From: Ammoniphilus oxalaticus
Lineage (GTDB): Bacteria; Bacillota; Bacilli; Aneurinibacillales; RAOX-1
Length of the DNA: 64,000 bases
Assembly (NCBI RefSeq): GCF_003609605.1
Contig: NZ_MCHY01000008.1
Span: 868,001-932,000, forward strand
Direction of reading: 5' to 3'
Every line of letters starts with the position of its first letter. The first letter of the stretch is position 1. The notes beneath the pieces are model-generated. The model worked only from the letters and a program-made list of their open reading frames with translations, made no database searches and was not told the DNA's origin. Below, piece after piece: positions 23,255-39,625 of this stretch. The translations under genes were made by a program, and so were the position numbers.

Positions 23255-23286
23255 AACGCTGACCCCACGGGGATCAGCGTTTTTTG
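23255..23286. terminator. bidirectional terminator
   Basis: AACGCTGA (23255-23262) pairs with TCAGCGTT (23274-23281), extended by CCCC/GGGG with one bulge. A-run on the left and T-run on the right serve both convergent genes; the stop codon of the minus-strand glycosyltransferase lies inside the hairpin. Confidence 0.85.
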
Positions 23287-24386
23287 ACGGAGTAAGGGGT
23301 TACTTTGAGTAACCGTGGGTATAGCTTTTTGACGTGGGTTGGTTTCTTTTTATAGAGTTGTAAGAGCGCTTTTCCAATGACTTGAGCGCCGTTTACGCGT
23401 ACTTTGGAGTAGGCGCGCGTGTAGCGTTTCCGATTTTTGTCTACTTTATTGATTCGTTTTTGCAGTTGACGCGTGGACATTCCGTTGCGGAGGATGCACA
23501 TGTTTGAGCCGATTAAGCGACGTAGCATGTCGTTTTTGACGACGCGCTCGCGGCTGTCGGCGGGTAGCATCAGAAGGGGTGTTTTGGAGGCAATGCAATC
23601 GGTTAGCACACCCATGCCCGGTTTGGAAATAACGATATGGGCGGCATTGATTAGATCTCTGCCATTCGGAAACAACGGCGCTTTGATGATGCGTTTATTT
23701 TTGAAGGAATAGCCTTTGCCGCGATTCAGTTGGCCGGCAATCACGATTCGATGCTTCGTTTTCAAGCGGTCGATTCGTTTATACCACTGATTAATATGCT
23801 GATAGCGATATTTCCCTTTGCCGCCGCCCATCTGGACCAAAATAAACCGTTCATTCGGTTTAAGACCCAGCTTCCTTTTCACTTTTTGGGCGGACTGACT
23901 GATCGGTCTAACGATCAATGGGATCGGGACATAGCGGGTTCCTTTCATTTTCGGAATATAGCTTGGCTGGCCAAGCGTCATGTGGAAGAAGACATCGGTC
24001 GTTTGGTTGGCGTCGCGGATGACTTCTTTTTTAAATTTGATCGCTCGCTTGGAATCGGACTTGCGTATTTTTAAGTCACTGTGATAGATGCCGCAGATGA
24101 TCGGTCGTCTCTTTTTTGGGATCGATTTAAGCGGCTTCATCTCTTTGCGCCAATCATGGACAATTAGACGCGAGCGCAACAATCGTTTACGATGAACCCC
24201 TTTGATTTGCTTTCCTGAACACGGTCTCAATTTGGTAGCGGATGAACCGAGATTCGATCTCAACCATCTATGAACCCCGCCGAATGAGTAGACAGTGACT
24301 CTTTTCCCTTTTTTCTTTAAGTATCTCACATTCGGAACACAGCGGCTTAAATGGCCAAAATTGCGGCCGACGACATAGCTGATCAC
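23274..24386 (-). CDS. GT-B fold glycosyltransferase (MurG/UDP-glycosyltransferase-like)
   Basis: A 370-residue enzyme that should move a sugar from a nucleotide donor. The N-terminus has SYVVGRNFGHLSRC, the glycine-rich acceptor-side loop of GT28/GT1-like enzymes. The C-terminal donor domain has FILVQMGGGKGKY, IVIAGQLNRGKG, and the diagnostic AHIVISKPGMGVLTDCIASK with PLLMLP. GTG 24386 is preferred because AAAGGGTGGG is 6 bases away; ATG 24392 would touch that site. It is divergent from the GT4 genes and unusually rich in Lys and Arg. It probably contributes to a spore or cell surface glycan. Confidence 0.8.
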   Translation of the reverse strand: MISYVVGRNFGHLSRCVPNVRYLKKKGKRVTVYSFGGVHRWLRSNLGSSATKLRPCSGKQIKGVHRKRLLRSRLIVHDWRKEMKPLKSIPKKRRPIICGIYHSDLKIRKSDSKRAIKFKKEVIRDANQTTDVFFHMTLGQPSYIPKMKGTRYVPIPLIVRPISQSAQKVKRKLGLKPNERFILVQMGGGKGKYRYQHINQWYKRIDRLKTKHRIVIAGQLNRGKGYSFKNKRIIKAPLFPNGRDLINAAHIVISKPGMGVLTDCIASKTPLLMLPADSRERVVKNDMLRRLIGSNMCILRNGMSTRQLQKRINKVDKNRKRYTRAYSKVRVNGAQVIGKALLQLYKKKPTHVKKLYPRLLKVTPYSVKKR

Positions 24387-24556
24387 GAACATCCCACCCT
24401 TTATCGTTTGGTCTATTGTATGAGCGCGACGGCGATTTGCAGGCGGCATTCGTCTATTTTTGGGTGATTTAGGCGAATGGACCGGGCGAACTCGCCTGGC
24501 GGCTCATATACATACAAAAGATTGCTCAAACTCGAAAATAAAAATGAGGTGACAGG

Positions 24557-25666
24557 ATGAAAAGGGTGGCTGTCATCAGAAGTAATTTCTTGCCCCCAAC
24601 AGAAACGTTTATATATGAAGAGTTGAAAAGGTTGAAAAGGTATCGAGCCTATGTGCTGGCGAAAAAACGTTCAAACCGAAAGAAGTTTCCGTATCCGCGC
24701 GTCACGGTCATCAACAAAAAGAAAGGCTGGCGACATTATCTTCGGAAAAATAAGATTGACCTGATCCATGCTCGTTTTGGGCATGCAGGGATCGACTTGC
24801 TTGACACGAAGCGTAAAACAGGGTTGCCGATGATCACGTCCTTCCACGGTCATGATAATCCGCGTAATCGTAAAAACCGAAAAAAGTATAGAAATTTAAA
24901 GAAATTGTTCCGTCATGGCGAGAAATTCACCGTCACGAATCGGCAGATGGGCCGTATTTTACGCGAATACGGTTGTCCCAAGAGAAAAATTCACGTGCAG
25001 CATAGTGGAATAGATCTAGCAAAATTCCGCTTTAAAGCGCGTAAACGTCCCAAAAAGGGTCCGATTAAAATTTTATATGTCGGGCGGTTCGTCGAGAAAA
25101 AAGGGGCGAAGTATCTCGTGCGCGCCTTCAAAAGGGTGACGAAACGGGTCCCGAATGTAAAATTAACGATGATTGGAGACGGCAGTCAACGCAATCAAAT
25201 CAAAAGACTCGTCCGAAAACTAGGTTTAAGCAAAAAAGTGAACATGATTCGCACATTGCCTCATCAGCAGGTCGTGAAACAGATGCGCCATACACATCTT
25301 TTCTGCCTGCCCAGTGTGACCGGTAAAAATCGGGACCAGGAAGGGATTCCCAACGTATTGAAAGAAGCGATGGCCAGCGGGGTCCCAGTCATTTCTACGA
25401 GACATGCGGGGATACCCGAGTTGGTTACGCACAAAAAAACAGGTTTTCTCGTGCGTGAGCGGGATTCAAAGGCATTGGCGAAGATGTTGTTGTATGTCAT
25501 TCGTCGTCCGAACAAATGGAAAGGAGTCGGAATCCGCGCTAGGCGGAAAATCGCCCGGGATTTCGATAGTCGGAAGCAGACGGCGCGTTTAGAAAGATTG
25601 TATGATGAAGTGTTAAGAAACAGAAAAAGGAAGAAGAAAAAACGAAAACGGGGGGTTAAGCGATGA
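24557..25666 (+). CDS. glycosyltransferase family 4, Lys/Arg-rich
   Basis: A 369-residue GT-B enzyme. The N-terminal acceptor domain has NFLPPTETFIYEEL and SFHGHD; the donor domain has KILYVGRFVEKKGAKYLV and the GT4 E-x7-E motif in PNVLKEAMASGVPVISTRH, then GIPELV. The start is ATG 24557 with GAGGTGACAGG. The end is a block of almost pure Lys/Arg (RKRKKKKRKRGVKR). It overlaps the next glycosyltransferase by 4 bases (ATGA). The charge is far from the usual for this family and might fix the enzyme to an anionic polymer or membrane. Confidence 0.9.
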   Translation: MKRVAVIRSNFLPPTETFIYEELKRLKRYRAYVLAKKRSNRKKFPYPRVTVINKKKGWRHYLRKNKIDLIHARFGHAGIDLLDTKRKTGLPMITSFHGHDNPRNRKNRKKYRNLKKLFRHGEKFTVTNRQMGRILREYGCPKRKIHVQHSGIDLAKFRFKARKRPKKGPIKILYVGRFVEKKGAKYLVRAFKRVTKRVPNVKLTMIGDGSQRNQIKRLVRKLGLSKKVNMIRTLPHQQVVKQMRHTHLFCLPSVTGKNRDQEGIPNVLKEAMASGVPVISTRHAGIPELVTHKKTGFLVRERDSKALAKMLLYVIRRPNKWKGVGIRARRKIARDFDSRKQTARLERLYDEVLRNRKRKKKKRKRGVKR

Positions 25667-26805
25667 AAATAGCGATGATCTGTTCGGATCGCGGTCCTTG
25701 TCCTCCTGTGAAGGGGGGCGCGATTCAGCTTTATATCGCTAAGGTCGCTCCGATCCTCGCCAAGAAGCACAAAGTGACTGTATTTTCCATCTCGGACACA
25801 TCTTTACCGAACCGTGAAAATCGCGGCGGCGTGACGTACGTTCGTTATCCTAAAAGCAAATTTGAACAAAAAGTATTGAAAAAAATAAAAAAGGATCACT
25901 ATGATATTGCCCAAGTGTTTAATCGTCCGACCTTAGTGACCCAAGTGAAGAAGGCGAGTCCGAAAACAAAGGTCGTCCTCAGTTTGCACAATCTTTTTTT
26001 CGGAACGAAGCGGCTTAAAGATAAAGATGCGCGCGCTTGTTTGAAGCATGTCGATTACATTGTGACGGTCAGCCGTTTTGTGGCCAGACATGTGACGCGC
26101 TATGGGTTTTCAAGTTCAAAAATCCGTCCTGTTTATTCGGGCGTTGATTTAAAGGACTACCCAAAACGAGGTTCGGCTCGTTGGAAAAAGTGGCGCAAAT
26201 CCGTTCGCAAACGTTGGCGGATTCCCAAAAAGTCAAAAGTGGTCTTATTCGTTGGCCGTTTGGTCCCCGACAAAGGCTCTCATGTTGTCCTCAAAAGCAT
26301 GAAATCCGTCATCAAAAAGCATCGCAATGTCCGTTTGCTTGTCGTCGGCAGCAAGTGGTACGCGCAACATGAACGGACCCCTTATATTCGCAAATTGTAT
26401 CGCGAAGCCGCTAAGTTAAATCCGCATGTCACGTTCACTTCGTATATCCCCGTCAATAAAATGCCCCGCTATTACGCGGCTGCAGACGTATTCGTGTGCG
26501 CTTCTCAATGGAAAGAACCGCTCGCGCGTGTTCACTATGAAGCGATGGCAGCGAGTCTGCCCATCGTTACAACCCGACGCGGCGGAAACGCGGAGGTCAT
26601 GATCGAAGGAAAGAATGGCTATTCCCTTCGCGCTTACAGAAGTTCAAAAGCATTTTCAACAGCGTTAAATAAGCTGTTAAGAAACCGTCAACGAGCGAAG
26701 AAAATGGGGCGGTATGGTCGAAAGTTAACCGAACGGAAGTATACGTTTACTCGCGTCGCCCGCGATTTACAGGGGATTTATCGAAAATTGGATAAAAATA
26801 AATAA
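25663..26805 (+). CDS. glycosyltransferase family 4, CotSA-like
   Basis: A 380-residue GT4 enzyme. The start, GGAIQLYIAKVAPILAKKH followed by VTVFS and a D-x-x-x-P-N-R segment, resembles the Bacillus spore coat protein CotSA. The donor part has VVLFVGRLVPDKGSHVVL and the E-x7-E motif in EPLARVHYEAMAASLPIV. It is translationally coupled to the preceding GT4 gene and followed by a terminator. Lys/Arg-rich like its neighbour. A role in spore surface polysaccharide is inferred from the CotSA likeness and neighbours. Confidence 0.9.
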   Translation: MKIAMICSDRGPCPPVKGGAIQLYIAKVAPILAKKHKVTVFSISDTSLPNRENRGGVTYVRYPKSKFEQKVLKKIKKDHYDIAQVFNRPTLVTQVKKASPKTKVVLSLHNLFFGTKRLKDKDARACLKHVDYIVTVSRFVARHVTRYGFSSSKIRPVYSGVDLKDYPKRGSARWKKWRKSVRKRWRIPKKSKVVLFVGRLVPDKGSHVVLKSMKSVIKKHRNVRLLVVGSKWYAQHERTPYIRKLYREAAKLNPHVTFTSYIPVNKMPRYYAAADVFVCASQWKEPLARVHYEAMAASLPIVTTRRGGNAEVMIEGKNGYSLRAYRSSKAFSTALNKLLRNRQRAKKMGRYGRKLTERKYTFTRVARDLQGIYRKLDKNK

Positions 26806-26832
26806 ACTCCGGGAGAGCCCGGGGTTTTTCTT
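26805..26832 (+). terminator. intrinsic terminator
   Basis: AACTCCGGG (26805-26813) pairs with CCCGGGGTT (26818-26826), with one T-G wobble, followed by a T-rich tract. Confidence 0.85.
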
Positions 26833-26844
26833 TTTGTCGCATAT

Positions 26845-26925
26845 TGTGAATATGTGTGAATGGGTGTGAATGATCAGGATGGGGGATTGTGTCGCCTTGT
26901 GTGGAATAATGTGAATTGATGTGAA
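26845..26925 (+). promoter_or_regulatory. helically phased TGTGAA array
   Basis: TGTGAA occurs at 26845, 26855, 26865, 26910 and 26920, with TGTG variants at 26888 and 26898. Within each group the spacing is exactly 10 bases, so the motifs face the same side of the helix. The array occupies the otherwise empty gap between the GT4 operon and the next glycosyltransferase. It may be a regulator binding platform. Confidence 0.5.
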
Positions 26926-27108
26926 CTTATGCGGATGAAAGGCGAAAGGTGTAAGAACACGCGCCGTTTTTCCTTCCAAAAGTGGGATTGCCCTTTTACT
27001 ATGTATGAAAAGCTCCGCTCGATTATGAACAGGAAACGTTCTGGATGATGCTGTCAAGAATGGTCAGATGTCGAGGGACAACCGCCGTTTCCTTCCTGTC
27101 CATGATTA

Positions 27109-27117
27109 CATAATCTA
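27109..27117 (+). promoter_or_regulatory. candidate sigma-K/E -10 box
   Basis: CATAATCTA fits CATANNNTA, 31 bases before the glycosyltransferase start at 27148. Confidence 0.45.
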
Positions 27118-27147
27118 TAAGTAAATCATGGAATGAAGAGGTGAACT

Positions 27148-28329
27148 ATGAAAATCGCCATCATCAGTCCAGGTCCATTTTCCGTCCCTCCTGTCATTGG
27201 AACAAGTGTGGAGCACGATATTCAAATGGTCGCTGAACAGTTGAAAGAACAGCATGAAGTCACGGTCTACACGCGAAAATGCCCCGAGTATCGGCGATCG
27301 AGCAGTGAGGGCAACTTACGATATAAAAGATATACGTATTCCCATCCAGCTCGCTATCTTCGGAAAGTGATCCGTCATATAAAAAAACAAAAACCAGACA
27401 TCATTATGGTCGAGAATCGTCCGTCATACGTGTTGCGGATTAAGGCAAACATCAAACATATTCCTGTTGCGCTCAACATGCATTCGATGTTATTTGCATC
27501 CCCGCCGCAAATCAATCGCGAAAAAATGAATCAGGTCGCGGAAAAGGTAGATGGTTTGATTACGAACAGTCGATATCTATTGAGTGAATATGAATCCCGC
27601 TTCCCCGCTTTTAAAGGAAAAGGGGTCGCTGTTCATCTTGGCATCCACCCTGATCCGTTCGAGCTTGCTCAGCAACGCGCGGAGAAAATTGAGGGTCTGA
27701 GGAAGAAGCTGAGCATTCAAGAAGGGGATCAGACGATTCTGTTTGTCGGTCGCCTTATGAAGGAAAAAGGGATTCACATGATTCTCGATGTGATGCCGAA
27801 ATTAATCAAGAAGTATCCGAAATTGAAATTGATCATCACAGGCTCCGCTCGCTATGGACGGAACGCGTCCACGCCGTACGTTCGTAAACTCAATCGACAG
27901 GCCGCGAAGTTGCGTAAGCATGTCGTATTCACTCAGTTTGTGCGACCAAATGAAATTCCCTATGTTTACCAATTGGCTGATATCGTCGTGATTCCTTCTT
28001 TTTGGCAAGAGCCATTTGGCAGGGTTAACTTAGAAGCGATGGCATCGAGTAAAGCGATTGTTGCCTCCGATCGCGGCGGCATTCCTGAGGTCGTCAAGCA
28101 TGAAGAGAACGGATTCGTATTTCCGCTAAAAAATTACAAAGAGGACTTATACGAATCGATTAGCCAGTTGCTCGAAGATGAAGATCTCCGCGCTGAATTT
28201 GGTCAAAAAGGGTTAGAGCGGGTCAAACAATTCACGTGGGCGAGAACAGCGGAACAGTACTTGCAGCTATTTCAAACGTTGGCGCCAAATGAACAGCTCG
28301 ATTCGGGAAAAGAATCGTGTTCCCAATAA
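27148..28329 (+). CDS. glycosyltransferase family 4, CotSA-like paralogue
   Basis: A 393-residue GT4 enzyme related to the one ending at 26805: both share P-Y-x-R-K-L-x-R-x-A-A-K-L and the W-x-E-P-x-x-R-V segment. Donor motifs are ILFVGRLMKEKGIHMILDV and EPFGRVNLEAMASSKAIVAS (E-x7-E). ATG 27148 follows GAAGAGGTG. It has its own sigma-K-like -10 box and a terminator, so it is expressed alone. The composition is less basic than the two upstream enzymes. Confidence 0.9.
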   Translation: MKIAIISPGPFSVPPVIGTSVEHDIQMVAEQLKEQHEVTVYTRKCPEYRRSSSEGNLRYKRYTYSHPARYLRKVIRHIKKQKPDIIMVENRPSYVLRIKANIKHIPVALNMHSMLFASPPQINREKMNQVAEKVDGLITNSRYLLSEYESRFPAFKGKGVAVHLGIHPDPFELAQQRAEKIEGLRKKLSIQEGDQTILFVGRLMKEKGIHMILDVMPKLIKKYPKLKLIITGSARYGRNASTPYVRKLNRQAAKLRKHVVFTQFVRPNEIPYVYQLADIVVIPSFWQEPFGRVNLEAMASSKAIVASDRGGIPEVVKHEENGFVFPLKNYKEDLYESISQLLEDEDLRAEFGQKGLERVKQFTWARTAEQYLQLFQTLAPNEQLDSGKESCSQ

Positions 28330-28338
28330 TAGTAGATA

Positions 28339-28371
28339 GCGCCTTATCCGTTTAAGGGAGAGGGCGTTTTT
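28339..28371 (+). terminator. intrinsic terminator
   Basis: CGCCTTATCC pairs with GGAGAGGGCG with one mismatch, followed by TTTTTT. Confidence 0.7.
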
Positions 28372-28566: not shown

Positions 28567-28634
28567 AAAGAAGATGACAGCCTAAATAAAAAAGTGAAAC
28601 TGTTAGATTGATCGATCAAAAAGGAGTGGAAAAG

Positions 28635-29993
28635 GTGGGTACAAAAGTTCAACTCGTGGCCAAGCAACTGGAGTCCCATTCTATGGTCATTCCCCCTGGT
28701 CTGGCCAAAGCCTTAGGAATGGATGCTTCAACCGCCCAAGTAAGACTCCATTTCGGAGTCTCCTCACAAAAGATGAACATCCGTGTTTCTAGTCAACTTC
28801 GGCAAGGAGAGATTCACATCTCAACCGATAGCGTCGACCGTCTAGCGATTCCGTTGCAACCTCGCTATGAACTGAGACGAAACGAAAATGGCATTTATCT
28901 TGGACCCTTCATCGGTTTTCTTCTCACTCATCCATCTAAAAATGTGGAGCAATACCTTCCTTATCTGAACGATTATCTCCCGCTTTATGATCAAGTTGGC
29001 GGCGCGATCGTCGCATTTGCATTGGGCGATGTCGATCGGCAAACCGATCGTCTGCGCGGATTTGTTTATGATCCTGACAAAAAAGGGTGGGAGAGTGGGG
29101 TCTATGGGGTCCCGTCTTCCCTGTTCATAAAGACTGCGATGCTTTCGCCACGTGATTTGCGCTATTTTGAAACGAAAATGGGCAAGACGGTCTTTAACAA
29201 CTTTAATCTTAATAAATGGGAAATGGATCAGGTATTGTCGCAAACGGGACTAAAGAAGCACTTGCCAAAAAGCAAACTTTATAAGCAAGTTGAAGATCTT
29301 CAATCCCTATTAAAAAGCAAGCAGCCCGTGTATCTGAAGCCGATCAACGGCTCCAGAGGTTATGCGGTGGCTCGAATCAGCAAAAATAAAAAAGGAATCT
29401 CGATGCGCTTTAGGTCCGATCAGAAAAACGAGAAGCTTGTTTTTAAAACGTTCGATGATCTACACAAGTTCTTACGACGATCCATCCGTCCAAAAACGTT
29501 TATGATTCAACGAGCGGTTGATCTACTCGTTGAAGGAGGAAGAATCATTGATTTCCGCATGATCATGGTAAAGGACGAGCGAGGGAAATGGGAGGATGTC
29601 GGGCTTGTTTCCCGCTTTGGACCTACGAACAGTGTTGTTAGTAATATTTCCGCGGGCGGCACAGCGGAACTTGGCGAACAAACATTGCAGCGACTTTTTA
29701 ATTTATCGGCTGACGAGTTAATCGAGTGGCGCAAGCGGCTCAGTCGGATTGCCCATCAGGTCGGGCGTTGCCTAGACAAATCAGGTCTGCATTGTGGAAA
29801 TATGGGCGTCGACTTTGGCATTGATAAAAAAGGCCGCATTTGGATTTTAGAAATTCAACATAACAATCCAGATCATACGCTTGCGCTAGATGCTAGCGCA
29901 TTCGAGCTGTATGAGCAGATTTTACGCAAGCATTTACTTTATTTGAAGGGCTTAGCCGGATTTTCGGCTCGGGAGCGAGCGGAAGATGGGTAA
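28635..29993 (+). CDS. YheC/YheD family ATP-grasp protein
   Basis: A 452-residue protein of the endospore coat-associated YheC/YheD family. The N-terminal half is the family-specific domain (GPFIGFLLT, GFVYDPDKKGW). From about residue 200 there is an ATP-grasp fold: NKWEMDQVLS, YLKPINGSRGYAV, FMIQRAVDLL, IDFRMIMVKDERG, AGGTAELGE and the C-terminal IWILEIQHNNPDH. The usual metal-binding Glu-x-Asn is Glu-Ile-Gln here. ATP-grasp enzymes join a carboxylate to an amine. GTG 28635 has AAGGAG 9 bases away. It overlaps the racemase gene by 8 bases. Substrate unknown. Confidence 0.88.
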   Translation: MGTKVQLVAKQLESHSMVIPPGLAKALGMDASTAQVRLHFGVSSQKMNIRVSSQLRQGEIHISTDSVDRLAIPLQPRYELRRNENGIYLGPFIGFLLTHPSKNVEQYLPYLNDYLPLYDQVGGAIVAFALGDVDRQTDRLRGFVYDPDKKGWESGVYGVPSSLFIKTAMLSPRDLRYFETKMGKTVFNNFNLNKWEMDQVLSQTGLKKHLPKSKLYKQVEDLQSLLKSKQPVYLKPINGSRGYAVARISKNKKGISMRFRSDQKNEKLVFKTFDDLHKFLRRSIRPKTFMIQRAVDLLVEGGRIIDFRMIMVKDERGKWEDVGLVSRFGPTNSVVSNISAGGTAELGEQTLQRLFNLSADELIEWRKRLSRIAHQVGRCLDKSGLHCGNMGVDFGIDKKGRIWILEIQHNNPDHTLALDASAFELYEQILRKHLLYLKGLAGFSARERAEDG

Positions 29994-30702
29994 AATCATC
30001 GGGATCATAGGTGGAATGGGTCCGCTGGCTACTGTTGATATTTTTGAAAAAATCGTAAAGATGACACCCGCAGCCACAGATCAGGAGCATCACCGTATGA
30101 TGATTTACAACAACCCGAAAATTCCGAGTCGAATGGAGGCGGGGTTGGGCCACGGGGTTTCCCCCCTTGCTGAACTAATCGATACAGCGCGTCGCTTGGA
30201 GCGAGCAGGAGCCGATTTTCTCATTATGCCTTGTCACACAGCGCATATCTGGTTAAATCAGATTCGGCGGGAAGTTAGAATCCCGATCATCAGTATCGTT
30301 GAGACGACTGTGTCGGCGATCGAACAAGAGCATGACCCCCGCTTGGGACAGATTCTGTTGCTTAGTTCGCAAGCGACGATTCGACATGGCCTTTACCAAG
30401 AAGCGTTTCAAGAGAGGAATATGTCCATTCAACTGCCGACAGTCGAAGATCAACAATTTATCGAGGTTGTCATCCAGCAAGTGAAAGCGTCGGCGATTGA
30501 TCATGCCTTAATCAACAAACTAAACAGTCGTTTGCAGTTTTATTTCGCTAGAGGAACCCGGGCTTTACTCGGTGGCTGTACGGAGATTCCGTTATTGTTT
30601 CCACTGCTTCAAGTTCAGATGAAAAAATGGGATCCCACGTTGATGCTCGCGCAGCGGGCAATTGAACTTGCAAAGGAAAAAGATGGAGGCGAAGCTTCTT
30701 GA
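29986..30702 (+). CDS. aspartate/glutamate racemase family protein
   Basis: A 238-residue enzyme of the PLP-independent Asp/Glu racemase family, which makes D-aspartate or D-glutamate. Both catalytic cysteines are present: one in LIMPCHTAH and one in GGCTEIPLL. The N-terminus GIIGGMGPLATVD is standard. The usual Asn after the first Cys is His here. The gene overlaps the YheC/YheD gene in front and shares 4 bases with the MurF-like gene behind, so all three are translationally coupled. The product, a D-amino acid, may be the building block used by those ligases. Confidence 0.9.
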   Translation: MGKIIGIIGGMGPLATVDIFEKIVKMTPAATDQEHHRMMIYNNPKIPSRMEAGLGHGVSPLAELIDTARRLERAGADFLIMPCHTAHIWLNQIRREVRIPIISIVETTVSAIEQEHDPRLGQILLLSSQATIRHGLYQEAFQERNMSIQLPTVEDQQFIEVVIQQVKASAIDHALINKLNSRLQFYFARGTRALLGGCTEIPLLFPLLQVQMKKWDPTLMLAQRAIELAKEKDGGEAS

Positions 30703-32099
30703 AAAAGTTAAAGTTAAAGAAGGTCGTAAAAAAGATGGGAGGGGAGATCGTTTGGGGCAGTAAGGAGGCTAAGATTAGGCATGTGAGCTATTTTCCAAGA
30801 AGCTTTAGAAAGCACACCCTTTATTTCGATATGCCACATCCTTATTCCAAACGGTCGCTCGGCTCCTTGAAAGGAAAACCGAGTATTATTGTTAGTTCTT
30901 CCCCGCATCGGTTTGAAAAACTATTCGATAAAAATACAACGGTTATAAAAGTAAAAAATTCAATTAGAGCCTATTGGGACTTTGTGCGTTATTATCGCAC
31001 ACGATTCAAAATACCTGTCATCGGCGTGACTGGGACATGCGGGAAAACAACGACGACGGAAATGATCAAGACGATTCTCGCGAAACGTTATCGGGTACAT
31101 GGAACGGTCGATGGAAAGAACAATCTGAACAATAATTTACCTTATTTATTAGGATTCAATGAACAAACGGAAGCGGCCGTATTTGAAATGGGTGTATCTC
31201 ATCCCGGCTGCGTTGCCGACAGTTGTCGCCATTTTCGTCCCCAAGTGGGAATTATTTTAAACATAGGCGTTTATCATTTGCTCGGTTGTAAAACATTCGA
31301 TCAATACGTTCGAGCCAAAGCGGAGATGATCGCTGGGATTGAGCCAGGCGGGACGCTTATACTGAATGCGGACGATAAGCATGTTCGAAGCCTCGATGTG
31401 AGCTCCTTTAAGGGACAGATCGTCACCTTTGGAGTGGGTGAAAACGCCGATTTTCGCGCGACAGATATTCGTTATATAGAAGGGGGAATGGCTTTTACCT
31501 TGCATGCGGCGGGGCAGAGCCTTCCATTGATCGTTCATGGTTATGGAGAGGAAAATGTATACAATGCCATTGCCGCCCTTGCTGCCGCTCATGCGATTGG
31601 CATGAATTTAAAAGAAGCGGGCGCGGGGTTGGCCAAATTTGAACAAGTGCGTCAACATCTTGAAAAGCGTCAAGGTCCGAATGGCAGCGAGATTATTGAT
31701 GACACTTGGAATTGCACTCCTCCTTCAGTCCATGCTTCATTGAAGGTGTTGGATGCGTTGGCAGGGGCCCGAAGGAAAGTAGCGCTGCTTGGTTATATGC
31801 CGCAATTAGGAACGGAAGGCCAACGCGAATATGACAAGATAGCGCAGCGGGTGATGGAAGTCGGGGTCGATCATTTGATTGTGATTGGCGAAGCGAACAG
31901 AATCGGGCAAAGAGTAACTGAACTGGGTATGGATCCGAATCGGATTGATTACTGTCGTTCAGGTCATGAGGTTGCCCAAGCCCTTACGCCTTTTTTGAAT
32001 GACCAACATCTCATATTGTATAAATTCCCCTACAAATATCGTCTTGCCGCCTTTGCTCCGTTCCGCCAATTGATGAAAGAGACGCTCGGTTATTCATAA
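30699..32099 (+). CDS. MurF-like Mur ligase family protein A
   Basis: A 466-residue ATP-dependent amide ligase. The central domain has GVTGTCGKTTTTEMI (P-loop), FEMGVSHPGC, NIGVYHLLGCKTFDQYVRAK, ILNADD and HGYGEENVYNAIAALAAA. The C-terminal domain has IIDDTWNCTPPSVHASLKVLD, similar to the MurF dipeptide-adding region. The N-terminal 100 residues are short and unlike MurF's UDP-binding domain, so the acceptor is probably not a normal peptidoglycan precursor. It starts at TTG 30699, overlapping the racemase. It likely attaches an amino acid or peptide to a surface polymer. Confidence 0.88.
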   Translation: MKKLKLKKVVKKMGGEIVWGSKEAKIRHVSYFPRSFRKHTLYFDMPHPYSKRSLGSLKGKPSIIVSSSPHRFEKLFDKNTTVIKVKNSIRAYWDFVRYYRTRFKIPVIGVTGTCGKTTTTEMIKTILAKRYRVHGTVDGKNNLNNNLPYLLGFNEQTEAAVFEMGVSHPGCVADSCRHFRPQVGIILNIGVYHLLGCKTFDQYVRAKAEMIAGIEPGGTLILNADDKHVRSLDVSSFKGQIVTFGVGENADFRATDIRYIEGGMAFTLHAAGQSLPLIVHGYGEENVYNAIAALAAAHAIGMNLKEAGAGLAKFEQVRQHLEKRQGPNGSEIIDDTWNCTPPSVHASLKVLDALAGARRKVALLGYMPQLGTEGQREYDKIAQRVMEVGVDHLIVIGEANRIGQRVTELGMDPNRIDYCRSGHEVAQALTPFLNDQHLILYKFPYKYRLAAFAPFRQLMKETLGYS

Positions 32100-32112
32100 G
32101 TAGACGTCACTA

Positions 32113-32148
32113 AAAAAGACGACCTTCACATGGTGGAAGTCGTCTTTT
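32113..32148. terminator. bidirectional terminator
   Basis: AAAAGACGAC (32114-32123) pairs with GTCGTCTTTT (32139-32148), further extended by TTC/GAA; serves the convergent Mur ligase and YheC/YheD genes. Confidence 0.85.
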
Positions 32149-32158
32149 CATGTTTAAG

Positions 32159-33526
32159 TTATGTTCCATTTCTGGGGAATCCAGCTAGTCTTTTTGCGTA
32201 GAGCAGATTCGCTGAGCGCGCTTGTAAAAACTTATCGGTTCTTCCTGCGACAACAGCAATGAAGTGGTCGGGATTTTGGTTATTGATCTCGATCAACCAC
32301 AGCTTTTTATTTTTATCAATCGCTAAATCGAAACCGAGATTGGCGCAGTGGATGCCGCGTTTTTCAAGTTCTAGCGCGGCGTGGCGCGCGATCATCGTCA
32401 TTTTATTGTTCCATTGATTCGCTTTCCGACGGTTGATGTCGAGCGTTTGTTTTAACCCTTTTTTACCCCATTCGGCATAACCGCCAGAAGTAATGTTGCT
32501 AATAATGCTGCGTTTCGCCCCATATCGAGCAAACAGTCCAATGTTTGCCCATTGATTGGTATCGTCTTTCACTAACGTTAAGCGAAAATCAATCACCCTT
32601 CCCTTTAGCGTTAATAACGGGATGGCCTGTTGAATTAAATATTTTTCCGAGGCGGTTACGGTTTGCAAGTAAGAAATAAACCGTTTGTGATCCGCGAAGA
32701 TATGTTTGATGTTTTGGCCATAGACCCTTGTTTTCACGATCACTTTTGGGCGGTCAAAGGTGGCTTCGATGACCCCCGCTCCGAGTCGGCCAACAACAGG
32801 TTTAATGAAGATTTTTCCGTATTTTTTTAACATTCGTTTCACATCGGAGGAGTCGTTTAATAAGACGGTTTCGGGTAAATGGTGTTTGAGATTGGGGTGA
32901 CGGCGCAACCATCGATACATTTCCCATTTATCGAAAATCGGATAGTTGAAAATGCGCGGACCTAGCGTTTGGTAAAAATGAGTGGATAATTCCTGAAATA
33001 AATTCCATTTATCGGTCAGACTCACTTCCACGATCGATAGGATTGCCGCTGGATACGCGTATGTTCCTTTTTCCCAACGGTTGTATGTTGGATTGAAGAT
33101 CCATCCTTGAATCGTTTGCGAGCCTGGATCTACACCTTCAAGAGAGAAGATGAGCAAGGCGCCACCGATTTGCTCGTAATTTGCGGTAAAGCTCGCTAGA
33201 TAGTTTTCGTTATTTTCTAGTTGATTATCGGATACAGCGGCTAAGACCCCGATAAAGGGCCCGATGATCAGGCTATTTCCTTGTCGTTTGACTTCGTACT
33301 CCACCGTTGTTGGAAGATGTAAATGGGATAACGTGTCCGAACAAACCCGCAGCATATTCAAATCCAGGTCGGGATCCAACGCAAGCGTGACCTCTTCATA
33401 AACATTGCCAAAAACGAGTGTTACTTGCTCTCCCTTTTCTAAATTTAGGTGGGCGAGTGTTTGAGGATGAGCTGTCAGACAAGCGGAAGCGCTAGATTCT
33501 GATATAATCTTGACTCTTCTAATCAA
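32159..33526 (-). CDS. YheC/YheD family ATP-grasp protein, second copy
   Basis: A 455-residue paralogue of the protein encoded at 28635-29993 with the same two-part layout. ATP-grasp landmarks are FIKPVVGRLGAGVIEA, YLIQQAIPLLTL, IDFRLTLVKDD, GGYAEWGKKG, IHCANLGFDLAID and LWLIEINNQNPDH with an intact Glu-x-Asn. TTG 33526 is set by GGGAGGG 7 bases upstream. It points away from the second Mur ligase and carries its own sigma-K-like box at 33570-33578. Confidence 0.88.
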   Translation of the reverse strand: MIRRVKIISESSASACLTAHPQTLAHLNLEKGEQVTLVFGNVYEEVTLALDPDLDLNMLRVCSDTLSHLHLPTTVEYEVKRQGNSLIIGPFIGVLAAVSDNQLENNENYLASFTANYEQIGGALLIFSLEGVDPGSQTIQGWIFNPTYNRWEKGTYAYPAAILSIVEVSLTDKWNLFQELSTHFYQTLGPRIFNYPIFDKWEMYRWLRRHPNLKHHLPETVLLNDSSDVKRMLKKYGKIFIKPVVGRLGAGVIEATFDRPKVIVKTRVYGQNIKHIFADHKRFISYLQTVTASEKYLIQQAIPLLTLKGRVIDFRLTLVKDDTNQWANIGLFARYGAKRSIISNITSGGYAEWGKKGLKQTLDINRRKANQWNNKMTMIARHAALELEKRGIHCANLGFDLAIDKNKKLWLIEINNQNPDHFIAVVAGRTDKFLQARSANLLYAKRLAGFPRNGT

Positions 33527-33569
33527 GTGAAATCCCTCCCGCGGGAAAACGTCAGGCAAGTGTAGTAGC

Positions 33570-33578
33570 TAGTATATG
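33570..33578 (-). promoter_or_regulatory. candidate sigma-K/E -10 box
   Basis: Minus-strand CATATACTA (CATANNNTA) about 43 bases before the second YheC/YheD start. Confidence 0.45.
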
Positions 33579-33711
33579 AAATTGTCATGCAAGTGACTAG
33601 ACAGAAGGGAGGGTAACCTCAAAATTAAGCCAATGCCCCGCCGCAAACGCTCAAGCCAAGTCCTATCTTTGTTAATACAATAGAGTAGGTTAACGCTAGG
33701 GAGGAATGAAC

Positions 33712-35103
33712 TTGAAAACATTAACTGTTCAAGATATTTTGGGACCGCTTAAAGGGACTTTGGTCCGCGGGAGCCGAACTGAGCCGATACGGGATGCCGT
33801 TGAACATCCTTCGCAAATTCGGAGAAGAAACACGTTAGTGTTTGACCGTTACGATAAATATTTGCTGCCGCGCGCGTGGCGGATGTTTCCCAGGGGGGTC
33901 ATTGTCACCGACACGCCGCCGATGTTTTTGGGCAACGACTGTCGCTGGACGATCATATACGTGAAAGATATGGAACAAGCTTTCTGGGACTTTGTAGAGT
34001 ATTATCGCGGACTGTGGGACATCCCTGTCATCGGTGTAACCGGCACATGCGGGAAAACAACGGTGAAGGAAATGGTCAGCTATATTTTGAGTGAATCGAT
34101 GCGAACGCAATCGACCTATAAAACATACAACGGACTCGTCTACAATTTGCGTTATTTGATTGGGATCGATGAACGAACCGATGCGGCTGTAATGGAAATG
34201 AAAGTCGCCGTGCCTGGCGATCTGTTGCATACGTGCCGCGTGTTTAAACCGCAAATAGGGATCTTTACTAACATTGGTACGGATCATTTAGAACACTGTG
34301 GGACGATGGAAAATTATATCCGAGAGAAGGCGCGGTTAATCGATGGGTTAGATCCGCGGGGCGTCCTTATTTTGAACTGGGACGACGCGAATATTCGGAA
34401 CCTGGACACGTCCTCTTTTCAAGGAAAGATCCTAACATATGGAAAAGGAGAGGGTGTGGATTATCGGATTACGCAGATCAGTTATCGAAACGAGGGCATG
34501 CGCTTTACTTTTTCCAGCAATGGAAGGTCGTATGAAGCCTCGACGCACGGGTACGGGGAACATACGGTTTACAATGCGGTTGCCGCGCTGATTGCCTGTG
34601 AAGCCGTTGGGGTTGATCTGCAGACTGCGATCAGACGTTTGGCGTCCTACCGTCAGCTAGAGGCGCATCTACAAACACGCGTAGGGATTAATGGATGTCT
34701 GTTATTAGATGATACATGGAGTTCCAATCCGACTTCGGCGGAGGCGGCTTTGAAAGTGTTGCATGAGTTGGCGCAAGGGAAGCAAACGGTCGCGATCATG
34801 GGGCGAATCGGCATGCTAGGGGAACATACAGACGAACAACATCAGATGCTAGGGGATAAAGTTGTTGAGAATCAGGTCGACGCTTTAATTACGATCGATC
34901 CAACCGCCGATTTGATCGGGAAGCGCGCGATTGAGCTTGGTATGGATCCTCGTAGAGTATTCTCGTGTCATTCCCCGCATCAAGTGTACGGACGGTTTCG
35001 TCAATTAGTAGATAAAGACGCTGTTGTCCTCCTAAAGACATCGATGATGGATCGCGTCGATCAAATTAAAAAATTGATCATCAAGGAGGGGGATCGTCCT
35101 TGA
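33712..35103 (+). CDS. MurF-like Mur ligase family protein B
   Basis: A 463-residue paralogue of Mur ligase A with the same reduced N-terminal domain. Motifs: GVTGTCGKTTVKEMV, MEMKVAVPGDLL, NIGTDHLEHCGTMENYIREK, ILNWDD, HGYGEHTVYNAVAALIA and LLLDDTWSSNPTSAEAALKV. TTG 33712 is used because GGGAGG is 7 bases away, while ATG 33706 directly abuts that site. It overlaps the DUF2156-type gene by 4 bases. The repeated design (Mur ligase beside an ATP-grasp or acyltransferase gene) suggests two rounds of amide formation on the same polymer. Confidence 0.87.
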   Translation: MKTLTVQDILGPLKGTLVRGSRTEPIRDAVEHPSQIRRRNTLVFDRYDKYLLPRAWRMFPRGVIVTDTPPMFLGNDCRWTIIYVKDMEQAFWDFVEYYRGLWDIPVIGVTGTCGKTTVKEMVSYILSESMRTQSTYKTYNGLVYNLRYLIGIDERTDAAVMEMKVAVPGDLLHTCRVFKPQIGIFTNIGTDHLEHCGTMENYIREKARLIDGLDPRGVLILNWDDANIRNLDTSSFQGKILTYGKGEGVDYRITQISYRNEGMRFTFSSNGRSYEASTHGYGEHTVYNAVAALIACEAVGVDLQTAIRRLASYRQLEAHLQTRVGINGCLLLDDTWSSNPTSAEAALKVLHELAQGKQTVAIMGRIGMLGEHTDEQHQMLGDKVVENQVDALITIDPTADLIGKRAIELGMDPRRVFSCHSPHQVYGRFRQLVDKDAVVLLKTSMMDRVDQIKKLIIKEGDRP

Positions 35104-36083
35104 TCAAGTGGGGAGAACAGCCAAGGAAAATCAAGTTAGGTGATCAGACGTTTCGTCAGATTCGCTTAAGAGACAAAGAGATGTTTGAATCGTACACGAA
35201 ACGCTGTGACTATCCGACCAATTTATGGTCGATGAACTTTGCGTTTCTTTGGGCAGACGCTAAAGGGGATCAGAAGCTTGTTTTCTGGAAAATCATCGAT
35301 GATCTGCTCGTCCCGTTTGTTCTATATCGGAAAGAAGGATTGCATCTCCTTTGTTTGCCGTTAGGAGCGGGGGGACCCGATCGTATATTATATGTTGCTT
35401 ATCAATGCTTAAAGTTCTGCAATACTTGGAATCGAAAAAACCGCTACTATCCAGCGACAATCCGCACGGTCAATCGGGATCAGCTCACTTTTTTGCAACG
35501 TAGTTCCGAGTTTCAAAAATACTTTGAATACCGAGAGATGAACGGGCGAGAACGGCATTTCAGCATTGAAAAGATTACCGAATTGAAGGGAAAGGACTTT
35601 CAACGAATACGCAATCAACTAAACCGCTTTAACCGCGACTATCCTAATGCGGTGATTCGTCCCTACGAACATCGTGATTATGAGGCTGTGTTGCGTGTAA
35701 ACAACAACTGGTTGAAAAAAGCGAAGCAGCAGTATTCGGTTATCTTCGACCAACTGTACTTTCGGGAAATCATGAAACAGCATGAAGAACTGGAACACGC
35801 AATCCTTGTCGTTGAAATTGATCACGAAATTGTCGGGATGGTGAGCGCAGGATTGACCGCGGAAGGCCAGTCATGGGGCTGCCTGATTAAGAAAATGGCC
35901 GATGTTGACGGTCTGAATGAAGTGATGATTGTAGAAATGGCGCGCGCAGTTCAACGTCTCTATCCGACGGTGGAACTACTCAATGTCGGCAGTGATTTAG
36001 GGGTGGAGGGGCTTAGCAAGTTTAAGGAAAAGTTTCGACCTGCGCTCAGTTTAGAACGGTATCGCGTACGCTTGAAAAAATAA
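35100..36083 (+). CDS. DUF2156/GNAT-type acyltransferase (aminoacyl transferase-like)
   Basis: A 327-residue protein with two GNAT-like halves as in the C-terminal part of phosphatidylglycerol lysyltransferases and FemX-like enzymes: WSMNFAFLWA near residue 45, RNQLNRFNRDYPNAVIRPYE near 180 and VVEIDHEIVGMVSAGL near 245. Such enzymes transfer an aminoacyl or acyl group. TTG 35100 overlaps the stop of Mur ligase B, so the two are made together. No membrane segment is present. It may add an amino acid to the polymer. Confidence 0.75.
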   Translation: MIKWGEQPRKIKLGDQTFRQIRLRDKEMFESYTKRCDYPTNLWSMNFAFLWADAKGDQKLVFWKIIDDLLVPFVLYRKEGLHLLCLPLGAGGPDRILYVAYQCLKFCNTWNRKNRYYPATIRTVNRDQLTFLQRSSEFQKYFEYREMNGRERHFSIEKITELKGKDFQRIRNQLNRFNRDYPNAVIRPYEHRDYEAVLRVNNNWLKKAKQQYSVIFDQLYFREIMKQHEELEHAILVVEIDHEIVGMVSAGLTAEGQSWGCLIKKMADVDGLNEVMIVEMARAVQRLYPTVELLNVGSDLGVEGLSKFKEKFRPALSLERYRVRLKK

Positions 36084-36092
36084 GAGGAACGT

Positions 36093-36121
36093 AAAAGCAT
36101 AGACTTGATCTATGCTTTTTT
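36093..36121 (+). terminator. intrinsic terminator
   Basis: AAAAGCATAGA (36093-36103) pairs perfectly with TCTATGCTTTT (36109-36119), followed by T. Confidence 0.9.
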
Positions 36122-36254
36122 ATACTCTGACTCGACCTATCAATCATTTGTAGTCACTCTATTAAAATGTGCAAATGGATGAGGACGAGCGCTTAGTCAA
36201 TAAGCTTCTCTCTAACATATAAATATACTAGATCAAATGAAAGAGGTGAATATA

Positions 36255-36695
36255 ATGGGAATTCGAAAACATGATCAATGCTTTGTTGAAACGCATAAAG
36301 CCTATCTAGATTTTGCTCTCGGTTACAACAATACCCCCGCGCCGGCCCCTTCCGGATCAATGCCGATTAATAGTGTTGTAGATTACGGCAGAGTCTTTTT
36401 TGAAGACAAGACTCACAATCATAACAAAGCGTTAATCGTTGTAAAACGGACAGATGCGGATCCTTGCAAGTTACGCTTATTTGTAAAGACGCGTGATAGA
36501 AATGAACCATTTTCACAGTTAATCCCTGCCGCAGTCGTTAATGAATATGACCATCCCGGTAGTTATGCGATGCAAGTTGAAAATGTAGAGTGGGTTTCGT
36601 TAGCTTGTGAGCCGACAGGTGGTGTCCCTGGATATTGTGTTGGAAAACTTATTATCCAAAAGACATTCTGCATTTGTTGCAAAAATAACGGCTAA
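36255..36695 (+). CDS. Cys-containing hypothetical surface-type protein
   Basis: A 146-residue protein, ATG 36255 with AGAGGTG. It has a Pro/Ala linker (NNTPAPAPSGSMP), a beta-rich middle and cysteines at both ends: one in HDQCFVE, one in ACEPTGG, and the C-terminal TFCICCKNNG. Cys-rich termini around a beta domain are common in disulfide-linked spore coat or appendage proteins, but I cannot place it in a family. CATATAAATA at 36216 is a near-miss to the sigma-K box. Confidence 0.65.
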   Translation: MGIRKHDQCFVETHKAYLDFALGYNNTPAPAPSGSMPINSVVDYGRVFFEDKTHNHNKALIVVKRTDADPCKLRLFVKTRDRNEPFSQLIPAAVVNEYDHPGSYAMQVENVEWVSLACEPTGGVPGYCVGKLIIQKTFCICCKNNG

Positions 36696-36706
36696 TCACT
36701 GTTGAG

Positions 36707-36755
36707 AGGCTGACTCAATCAGGGTACGACCCTTCGTATTGGGTCAGTCTTTTTA
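36707..36755 (+). terminator. intrinsic terminator
   Basis: GCTGACTCAAT and ATTGGGTCAGT form an imperfect stem around a GGGTACGACCC inner hairpin, followed by TTTTTATTTTT. Confidence 0.75.
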
Positions 36756-36806
36756 TTTTTATCATTGCTTTATTTTTCTAATAAAAAAAGAAAGGAGGCG
36801 CATTCA

Positions 36807-38126
36807 ATGAATGTACAGATCCAACGTTGTTACCATCTCTCTCCCGATCAAGTCCTTATTTCAAAGAAGTGGCGGAGCAGTCGATTTCCAAGAGAACTAA
36901 CCTTGAATCTTGGCGCCTGGAGAAAACGTATGCAAGTCGTGTTTAGTGACCGTTTAGCCTCTGATACAATTGGCATCTCCACTGCCTTATTTCCAAGTCT
37001 AACCATTCCAGCGAACCTCTATTACGAGAGTCGATGGATGGGGACGCAGTTGATCGTTGGCCCGGTTATCGCTCTGATCGTTGGCAAGCAAGAGTTAAAT
37101 CAAGATGCATTCGATGAATTCGAAACCTACTTACAAGATTATGCGTCAATCAACGGCCTTGTCTATATTTGCGCGGAAAGCGGAATTAATACGCAGGCAA
37201 AAACGATCGAGGGATACTACTATGATCCACAGGCGAGTGAGGAAGAAGAATGTTGGAAGCAAGGTGTGTTTCCATATCCAGGATCGGTTTTTCGCCGCGT
37301 TCTTTTACAAGATCGGATTCATTATGATCTTGTTACTACGTTACAAGGGAGACTCTTTAATGGCTATTTATTCAACAAATATGAAATGTGGGACGCGTTG
37401 TCAAAGGTTCCTTCTCTGCGTAATCATCTGCCTGAAACCGCGTTGTTCATTGGGGTGGAGGATGTCAATCGGATGTTAGCGCGCTATCCGTCGGTGTATT
37501 TGAAACCGATGTTTGGCGGGTACGGGATCGGGATTTTAAAAATAGATCAGACGGCAGACGGGTATCGGTTGTATGATGGCGACAAAGTTGACAAGTCGTT
37601 TCAAGCTGTGGCAGAAATTGCAGACGACCTCAATCCGTTGATTATGCAGCATTATATTATTCAGCAAGCGGTCCCCCTTTTATATGAAGATCGACATGTA
37701 GATTTTAGAATCATCTTGCAAAAAGACGGTTCACAAAGTTGGAAGTCATCGGCGGTGTTAGCGAAGTTCGGTCGGGTTGATCAGATCTTCACGAATGATG
37801 CGAGCGCAGTTATGACAGGGATGGAAGCGTTAATGGAAATTTTTGAGCTTACGGAACAGGAAGCGGAGGCGAAAGAGCAACAGATCATTGATCTATGCAT
37901 CCAAGCCAGTCACGTTATGGAACAACGTTACGCGCGTTTTGGGATGTATGGGGATTTTGGATTTGATGTGATCATCGATCAATCCAAGCGGATCTGGCTG
38001 TTAGAAATCAACAAATTTCATCAGTATGAAATAGGATTATATGTAGATGACAATCCTGATGAACTGTACGAAAAATTTGTGACAACACCGCTTGCTTATG
38101 CTAAAGCGCTGGCTGGTTTTGGATAG
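36807..38126 (+). CDS. YheC/YheD family ATP-grasp protein, third copy (divergent)
   Basis: A 439-residue member with the N-terminal family domain (GPVIALIVGKQELN, GYYYDPQ) and an ATP-grasp half: FNKYEMWDALS, YLKPMFGGYGIGI, YIIQQAVPLLYED, VDFRIILQKDG and IWLLEINKFHQYEIG. The two other long copies end this motif in N-N-P-D-H or N-Q-N-P-D-H; here it is K-F-H-Q-Y, so its substrate pocket probably differs. ATG 36807 has AAAGGAGG. It stands between two terminators' worth of space and 84 bases before the TupA-like gene. Confidence 0.87.
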   Translation: MNVQIQRCYHLSPDQVLISKKWRSSRFPRELTLNLGAWRKRMQVVFSDRLASDTIGISTALFPSLTIPANLYYESRWMGTQLIVGPVIALIVGKQELNQDAFDEFETYLQDYASINGLVYICAESGINTQAKTIEGYYYDPQASEEEECWKQGVFPYPGSVFRRVLLQDRIHYDLVTTLQGRLFNGYLFNKYEMWDALSKVPSLRNHLPETALFIGVEDVNRMLARYPSVYLKPMFGGYGIGILKIDQTADGYRLYDGDKVDKSFQAVAEIADDLNPLIMQHYIIQQAVPLLYEDRHVDFRIILQKDGSQSWKSSAVLAKFGRVDQIFTNDASAVMTGMEALMEIFELTEQEAEAKEQQIIDLCIQASHVMEQRYARFGMYGDFGFDVIIDQSKRIWLLEINKFHQYEIGLYVDDNPDELYEKFVTTPLAYAKALAGFG

Positions 38127-38168
38127 AACGATGGGGTGATTGACTGAGAGCAAGACTATTTCCCCTAG

Positions 38169-38177
38169 CATATAATA
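38169..38177 (+). promoter_or_regulatory. candidate sigma-K/E -10 box
   Basis: CATATAATA (CATANNNTA), 34 bases before the TupA-like gene. Confidence 0.5.
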
Positions 38178-38210
38178 TGATAGAACGTTTATGAGTAGGG
38201 GGGGCGCTAA

Positions 38211-39041
38211 ATGAAGAAGGCTTTGACTCGGAAGCAAATTGAATCATTGAAAAGAAGTTTTAAAAAAAAACTAGGATATGAATGTGATCTAAAAGACCCC
38301 AAAACAATCCAAGAGAAAATACAATGGATTAAGATATATGGAAAGTTAGAAAGGTTTGCCAAATATACAGATAAGGTTGAGGTTCAAACGTTTATAATAG
38401 AGACAATCGGTGAAGCTTATCTTATTCCAACGATTGGTGTGTATGAGCATCTGGAGGAGATTGAATTTGAACAACTCCCGCAGTCCTTTGTCATAAAAGC
38501 AACGCATGGTTCAAGCTGGTATAAGATTGTAAAGGACAAAACCCAGATTGACTGGATGGAGATCCAGCAATTGCTAGGAGAGTGGCTTGAGTCTAGCTGG
38601 TTCTCGAAATCAAAGGAATCGAATTATAAACCATTGCCGAAGAGGATTTTGATTCAAGAGTATTTACCCCGCGCGCCGAAAACCTTTTCAGAATACTCTT
38701 TTCATTGTTTCCATGGAGAGCCTCAGTTTGTTCGGATCGACGGATATCAAAGCCTCGGCATCTATTCTATGGACTGGCAGCCGCTCCTCGAGCGGGTCGA
38801 GACGACGCCGTCGAATAACGATGAGAAGAGCATAGCGAAACCAGCTACCTTCGCGGAAATGGAACGCGTTGCCCGCGCCCTTGCCAAAGATTTACGATAC
38901 GTACGGGTTGATCTATTTGATGCTGCGGGGCGTGTCTATTTTAATGAAATGACCTTCGCTCCGGGCGGCGGCTTTCTGCAAACATCTGAAGAATTTGGTC
39001 TTTGGATTGGGTCCTTGCTAGACTTGAAGAAGTATGTATGA
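38211..39041 (+). CDS. TupA-like ATP-grasp protein
   Basis: A 276-residue protein matching the ATPgrasp_TupA family. Seen are DPKTIQEKIQWIKIYGKL near the start, KYTDKVEVQTFI, FVIKATHGSSW, RILIQEYL, SEYSFHCFHGEPQFVRID, and the metal-binding end VDLFDAAGRVYFNEMTFAPGGGF. TupA takes part in making teichuronopeptide, a co-polymer of polyglutamate and polyglucuronate in alkaliphilic Bacillus (established knowledge). It lies beside Mur ligases and a racemase, and a UDP-sugar dehydrogenase lies further on, so the same class of polymer is plausible here. ATG 38211 follows GGGGGGG. Confidence 0.87.
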   Translation: MKKALTRKQIESLKRSFKKKLGYECDLKDPKTIQEKIQWIKIYGKLERFAKYTDKVEVQTFIIETIGEAYLIPTIGVYEHLEEIEFEQLPQSFVIKATHGSSWYKIVKDKTQIDWMEIQQLLGEWLESSWFSKSKESNYKPLPKRILIQEYLPRAPKTFSEYSFHCFHGEPQFVRIDGYQSLGIYSMDWQPLLERVETTPSNNDEKSIAKPATFAEMERVARALAKDLRYVRVDLFDAAGRVYFNEMTFAPGGGFLQTSEEFGLWIGSLLDLKKYV

Positions 39042-39598: not shown

Positions 39599-39625
39599 TT
39601 TCATTCCCCCTCTATTAAATTATTT

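Follow-up and report, generated by a model that had tools for sequence, protein, structure and literature searches.

A probable spore-coat amide-ligase module of YheC/YheD-type ATP-grasp proteins and MurF-derived ligases in Ammoniphilus oxalaticus

The window analysed here is a stretch of 64,000 nucleotides from Ammoniphilus oxalaticus (contig NZ_MCHY01000008.1, positions 868,001 to 932,000), in which genes g1 to g13 occupy positions 23274-39041. They encode glycosyltransferases, ATP-grasp proteins of the YheC/YheD type (hereafter YheCD), an amino acid racemase, two Mur-like ligases, a member of the LPG_synthase_C/DUF2156 type (PF09924; hereafter LPGS), a small Cys-rich protein and a TupA-like protein. 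A sequence-only reading had listed four glycosyltransferases, three YheC/YheD proteins, the racemase, two MurF-like ligases, the DUF2156-type protein and the TupA-like protein; Pfam and NCBIfam scores recovered every one of them, but g11 had been overlooked. Open reading frames and start codons were called mechanically.

g1: 23274..24449, minus strand, GT28-C/MurG-like glycosyltransferase (PF04101, 27.4 bits; isoelectric point (pI) 11.4)
g2: 24557..25666, plus strand, GT4 glycosyltransferase (PF00534, 137 bits; pI 11.7)
g3: 25663..26805, plus strand, GT4 glycosyltransferase (PF00534, 140 bits; pI 10.7)
g4: 27148..28329, plus strand, GT4 glycosyltransferase (PF00534, 149 bits)
g5: 28608..29993, plus strand, putative ATP-grasp ligase YheCD-A (PF14398, 213 bits), first in a coupled YheCD-racemase-MurF1 unit
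g6: 29986..30702, plus strand, predicted aspartate-family amino acid racemase (PF01177, 121 bits)
g7: 30699..32099, plus strand, MurF1, predicted MurF-derived ligase (a Mur ligase nearest MurF, below the TIGR01143 cut-off)
g8: 32159..33559, minus strand, putative ATP-grasp ligase YheCD-B (PF14398, 229 bits)
g9: 33706..35103, plus strand, MurF2, second predicted MurF-derived ligase, translationally coupled to g10
g10: 35100..36083, plus strand, LPGS, putative aminoacyl transferase with a FemX/MprF-like fold (PF09924, 70.5 bits)
g11: 36237..36695, plus strand, predicted endospore appendage (Ena)-like small Cys-rich structural protein ending in KTFCICC (AlphaFold2 (AF2) fold; no Pfam match)
g12: 36765..38126, plus strand, putative ATP-grasp ligase YheCD-C (PF14398, 189 bits)
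g13: 38211..39041, plus strand, TupA-like ATP-grasp protein (PF14305, 137 bits)

Small overlaps, which had also been noticed before, were confirmed at g2/g3 (4 bp), g5/g6 (8 bp), g6/g7 (4 bp) and g9/g10 (4 bp), while gaps of about 150-340 bases precede g4, g5, g9 and g11. A single operon over 23274-39041 was rejected, since the strand switches twice (g1 and g8 lie on the minus strand) and both the glycosyltransferase block and TupA are conserved apart from the core. The span consists of at least three units, namely the glycosyltransferase block (g1-g4), a ligase core (g5-g10) and g11-g13.

A profile (A1) built from the Mur-like proteins was searched against genomes of the window's order (15), class (400) and phylum (300), and was positive in 25/400 class genomes at E<=1e-110 and in 9/300 phylum genomes. 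The 33 distinct genomes with the MurF-like clade, all Bacillota, are the denominator of the neighbourhood counts, which cover genes at most 6 kb from a MurF-like gene. G000 denotes the window's own genome, G001-G003 members of the same family, G005 a member of the same order and G177 one of another order. Roles of genes in related loci were assigned by local clustering with Pfam on representatives, and all statistics treat genomes and genes as independent, ignoring phylogeny.

The conserved unit is YheCD-racemase-MurF1, YheCD and MurF2-LPGS, at 28608-36083. Because its order and orientation are kept in G005 and G177, two other genera of which one belongs to another order (38-57% identity), the association of these genes is more than chance. 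Both relatives show YheCD-racemase-MurF1, then an opposite-strand YheCD at the position equivalent to g8, then YheCD-MurF2-LPGS; the window lacks this extra YheCD ahead of MurF2. MurF2 (g9) is 46% identical to its counterpart in G005 and 54% to that in G177, and the identities of the G177 core fit horizontal transfer and vertical inheritance alike. MurF1 and MurF2 form separate clades in the tree (supports 0.985 and 0.924) with the same internal branching. An ATP-grasp ligase lies near the MurF-like gene in 28/33 genomes (YheCD in 20, a YheCD-Mur fusion in nine, an L-amino-acid ligase of the LAL_C2 type in 13), whereas YheCD was found at 0/10 control loci with a canonical or short MurF. The fusions in nine genomes are single chains, two of which were checked with Pfam. 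Homologous loci retain the ligases.

The Mur-like proteins g7 and g9 have MurF as their best solved match and share its fold and catalytic residues. In their clade the P-loop (GTCGKT) is intact, as are the Glu that binds Mg, the His, the Lys that is carbamylated and the Asp near the C terminus; P-loop GKT, E163, H193, K207, N289 and D335 are all retained. They differ from MurF in carrying GTCGKT rather than GSNGKT and W(N/S)xxP rather than YNASP, and their TIGR01143 (MurF) scores of 242.3 and 228.7 bits do not reach the cut-off of 288.6. The UDP-MurNAc-binding N-terminal motif DSR..GD.F...DGH, which most canonical MurF proteins in the comparison carry, is absent from both proteins and from the clade consensus (50 sequences), and because this signature is missing they do not resemble ordinary peptidoglycan enzymes. 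A role as ordinary peptidoglycan enzymes was rejected on the strength of this loss together with a separate canonical MurF in the same genome (G000:C8:267274).

Two known systems also pair Mur ligases with ATP-grasp enzymes. The archaeal pseudomurein ligases (pMurC-E with an ATP-grasp) likewise make a surface peptide outside peptidoglycan (PMC11915815). They belong to other Mur subfamilies and organisms and make another structure, pMur models match the window proteins weakly, and the window module has a spore link. In cyanophycin synthetase (CphA) an ATP-grasp and a Mur ligase cooperate, as they may here. A cyanophycin-like storage polymer, a nitrogen reserve of the mother cell or spore, would suit this architecture, which occupies one chain in nine relatives; yet we regard it as very improbable. 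The window proteins are separate, come from another ATP-grasp family and are joined by additional enzymes; with separate chains, they score 67.9 and 59.9 bits against a cut-off of 850 for TIGR02068. Several different ligases and a source of D-amino acids would, moreover, be unexpected for a polymer of two amino acids.

The three YheCD proteins g5, g8 and g12 are clear family members, far above the curated PF14398 cut-off of 26.8 bits, and keep the ATP-grasp motifs KPxxGxxG and DFR and the C-terminal Mg-site D and E. What sets them apart within the family is their tie to the MurF-derived clade, a racemase and a DUF2156 transferase. The g5 AF2 model (pLDDT 91.8) is nearest in the PDB to tubulin tyrosine ligase (Ttl), Ddl, GshB, the graspetide ligase PsnB and ArgX, so that its predicted fold matches peptide-bond-forming ATP-grasps. 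By sequence and fold, TTLL6 and tubulin tyrosine ligase are the nearest solved relatives of YheCD. Protein g12 is 34.7% identical to the YheCD adjoining MurF in G002. The whole G000 genome has 15 PF14398 matches; five YheCD genes form an array on the minus strand at L063:3652-10566 (G000:C8). Iyer, Aravind and colleagues reportedly predicted in 2009 that the YheC/YheD-type ATP-grasp family modifies spore-wall material. In the open-access literature searched we found nothing on YheCD as ligases, nor on their association with a MurF-derived clade, racemase and DUF2156 transferase of this kind.

The racemase g6 has both catalytic Cys residues (C83, C198), and its nearest solved structure is the aspartate racemase 1jfl (E 4e-47). 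The NCBIfam equivalog for the cysteate racemase CuyB, with a cut-off of 190, gave 226.7 bits for the racemase of G000, 208.5 for that of G005 and 228 for that of G177. All three exceed the cut-off, and cysteate is therefore possible too; judged by sequence, the amino acid supplied may be D-Asp, D-Glu or D-cysteate. Protein g10 matches 2hqy (E 3.5e-10) and is a putative aminoacyl transferase, possibly tRNA-dependent.

Around this ligase core, other genes vary between lineages. The racemase and LPGS accompany it in the window, G005 and G177 (variant a), and LPGS also occurs in G002 and G611. In variant b (G007, G096, G372 and G441, with one gene in G286) the companions are phosphoenolpyruvate (PEP) mutase, phosphonopyruvate decarboxylase and a nucleotidyltransferase-2-aminoethylphosphonate (AEP) transaminase fusion; all three G007 enzymes exceed their NCBIfam cut-offs. 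An accompanying G007 protein (880-908 aa class) is by Pfam a COOH-NH2 ligase fused to YheCD, and the G096 and G372 counterparts agree in length and YheCD match. Variant c consists of YheCD gene arrays, some of them accompanied by a separate COOH-NH2 ligase; this glutamine-synthetase-like ligase is either fused to YheCD or adjoins it. In variant d, MurF-like genes in pairs stand with a YheCD-Mur fusion of 707-744 aa, a LAL_C2 ligase, CotZ (7 genomes) and NlpC/P60 (9 genomes); Pfam was applied to two of the fusions and to a single representative of the CotZ cluster and of the NlpC cluster. Variant e, in G330, has LAL_C2, two YheCD and LPGS, with MurF not nearby. In the class search, 5/6 LPGS-bearing genomes also had the MurF-like clade (hypergeometric 3.7e-6). 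Taken together, the variants indicate that the ligase core pairs with differing suppliers of unusual amino compounds.

Two further genes were seen in these neighbourhoods. In three genomes (L196:5168-5992, L049:3782-4453, L198:4723-5406) an N-formylglutamate amidohydrolase-like gene (PF05013, two checked) is oriented divergently to the AEP-type module and possibly encodes a degrading or trimming enzyme. A KamA-family aminomutase-like radical SAM protein stands among the YheCD genes of G002 (L050:6604-7791), a possible source of beta-amino acids.

Several lines of evidence connect the module with sporulation. SpoIVA is present in 31/33 MurF-like genomes, the two exceptions being assemblies 61% and 75% complete. 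PF14398 was found in 66/70 SpoIVA-positive and 1/8 SpoIVA-negative genomes (78 tested, p=1e-6), that is, in nearly every spore-former tested. CotZ lies beside the module in seven genomes. In B. subtilis, YheD is a SpoIVA-dependent basement-layer coat protein with no assigned function (PMC7911427, PMC3533761), and yheCD belongs to the sigma-E/SpoIIID programme (PMC517825); within the YheC/YheD type, a spore-coat location is known for this B. subtilis YheD only (PMC7911427). The -10 element common to sigma-E and sigma-K promoters, CATANNNTA (PMC517825), was found upstream of 32/83 core genes compared with 31/235 other genes (p=2e-6, for genes that are not phylogenetically independent), and shuffles gave a mean of 8.9 and a maximum of 18 for the core genes. 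Within the window it stands about 40 bp before g4, 51 bp before g5, 20 bp before the called start of g8 and 43 bp before g13. The window genes yielded no full sigma-E or sigma-K promoter, except for one sigma-E pattern located 158 bp ahead of g11. Away from its main SpoIVA gene, G005 carries another SpoIVA-like match, which is partial (G005:C1:1256002-1256640).

The same neighbourhoods bear on whether the product might be a soluble secondary metabolite, a small peptide or phosphonopeptide with no structural spore role. LAL_C2 ligases in 13 genomes and the phosphonate enzymes of variant b do accompany the ligases; nevertheless we consider this quite improbable given the SpoIVA co-occurrence, the CotZ neighbours, an Ena-like gene, the mother-cell-type -10 elements and the coat location of YheD (PMC7911427), and the conserved neighbours include no recognisable exporter or resistance gene.

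The overlooked gene g11 lies between ligase genes. When its AF2 model (pLDDT 72.7) was compared with the PDB, the five best matches were Bacillus endospore appendage subunits, which have a beta-sandwich fold: two chains of Ena2A, then Ena3A, Ena1C and the pilin 7a02 (E 1.3e-5 to 1.6e-4). Like Ena, g11 has Cys near both ends. It differs from Ena in its low identity (9-12%), its Cys motif, a C-terminal KTFCICC, and the lack of a Pfam match; g11 had no match in NCBIfam either, and its relatives none in a PDB sequence search. Homologues were found in the same family only, beside a UDP-galactopyranose mutase-like gene in G002 and as a tandem two-domain protein in G001. Members ending in KTFCICC are the window gene (36237-36695), L245:1516-1983 and L246:1432-2154.

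With g11 as a candidate acceptor, the ligases could act directly on coat or appendage proteins, placing amino acids or short side-chain peptides on carboxylates in the manner of tubulin ligases. This would agree with the solved structures closest to YheCD and with CotZ adjoining the module. We nevertheless think it distinctly unlikely. The fold likeness spans ATP-grasp ligases generally, with Ddl and GshB scoring about equally, and g11 homologues are confined to one family; to our knowledge, all Mur ligases characterised so far use small soluble substrates.

A second unit, conserved within the family alone, is the glycosyltransferase block, found in G001-G003 (L235:8605-17402, L236:8534-18539, L237:3999-10625). 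Homologues of g1 occur in these three genomes only (42-48% identity); g3 is 49-57% identical in the three and g4 61-64% in G002 and G003. In both latter genomes two YheCD genes lie between the g2/g3 and g4 homologues, and an APH-type kinase adjoins the g1 homologue. In G002 the block, sugar-nucleotide genes and a MurF/YheCD/LPGS cluster lie inside roughly 60 kb of one contig. Genes g1-g3 (23274-26805) encode extremely basic proteins with a net charge of about +67 to +86 at pH 7 and pI 10.7-11.7. Speculatively, this may reflect binding to an acidic polymer; since Lys+Arg make up only some 14-15% of the G001 homologues, the fold does not need the charge.

The sequence-only reading had proposed a sugar backbone bearing amino acids, with TupA and the racemase as parts of the system. 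The YheCD genes inside the block keep a glycan model alive at family level, in which g1-g4 would make a sugar chain on the spore surface and the ligases would decorate it with amino acids or a short peptide. We judge this to be on the unlikely side: glycosyltransferases stand near MurF-like genes in 1/33 genomes, the window itself, and none accompany the complete cores in G005 and G177. The TupA-like g13 recalls teichuronopeptide synthesis in alkaliphilic Bacillus; it differs in lying outside the conserved core, since its homologues are found in G001 and G002 only, elsewhere than the module, and TupA is missing from G003 and G005 as well as from most of the order. For these reasons the sugar backbone is a family-level possibility and not a property of the module, and TupA drops out of the core.

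We conclude that the core at 28608-36083, together with g12, is probably a spore-coat amide/peptide-ligase module. The ATP-grasp neighbours, the single-chain fusions and the SpoIVA, CotZ and Ena-like associations support two parts of the earlier reading, namely a dedicated amide-ligase system linked to the spore and YheC/YheD as its putative ligases. Synthesis would take place in the mother-cell cytosol, where the pyridoxal phosphate-independent racemase would supply a D-acidic amino acid (D-Asp, D-Glu or D-cysteate). The YheCD ATP-grasps and the two MurF-derived ligases would join amino acids stepwise through acyl-phosphates, and the DUF2156/FemX-like transferase would add a further residue, possibly tRNA-borne. 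The product, presumably peptide in nature, would be laid onto the forespore surface from outside, which would make a flippase or exporter unnecessary. Within the family its anchor might be a glycan produced by the adjacent glycosyltransferases, or the Ena-like g11. A simple hydropathy scan found no strongly hydrophobic 19-residue segment in g1-g15, as would suit a product made in the cytosol of the mother cell. By the same scan, g1-g15 include no membrane partners of the kind encoded with the ligase in poly-gamma-glutamate (CapBCA-type) synthesis. A surface polymer made by soluble enzymes alone would be odd in a vegetative cell and natural for a coat built from the mother-cell cytosol.

Several observations weigh against this interpretation. 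In five of the 33 MurF-like genomes the 6 kb neighbourhood contains no ATP-grasp, and the Mg motif of g5 is EIQ, with Gln replacing the Asn of E-x-N (EIN). SpoIVA occurs in 148/201 (74%) of the class background, and its presence in 25/25 is therefore modest evidence (5e-4, phylogeny ignored). The promoter case depends on the -10 element, the full sigma-K pattern being found in 11/83 core genes, and confidence in the g11 model is moderate. The racemase is found in 3/33 and LPGS in 5/33 of the MurF-like genomes; the chemistry thus varies between lineages, and the racemase of the earlier proposal is not supported as a general part.

More tentatively, and with somewhat less than even confidence, we suggest that the product is an undescribed non-ribosomal peptide-like coat polymer, made in the mother-cell cytosol by the MurF-derived clade and YheCD from lineage-specific monomers (a D-acidic amino acid, 2-aminoethylphosphonate, possibly beta-amino acids), with YheC/YheD as its ligases. 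Partnership with the MurF-derived clade would give YheD, until now a basement-layer coat protein lacking a function, a testable hypothesis. If this is true, spore coats may hold amide-linked non-ribosomal material invisible to protein gels, and the lineages hint at its monomers: D-Asp, D-Glu or D-cysteate in some and 2-aminoethylphosphonate in others.

Elsewhere in the window, two adjoining small GBD_T9SS_assoc-type proteins with 36% mutual identity are encoded beside the module (39104-40003, minus strand). A fourth, short YheCD-type protein (251 aa; 61608-62363, minus strand) lies near a subtilase (60372-61523), and a thiamine pyrophosphate (TPP) riboswitch was identified at 9376-9476 (70.9 bits).

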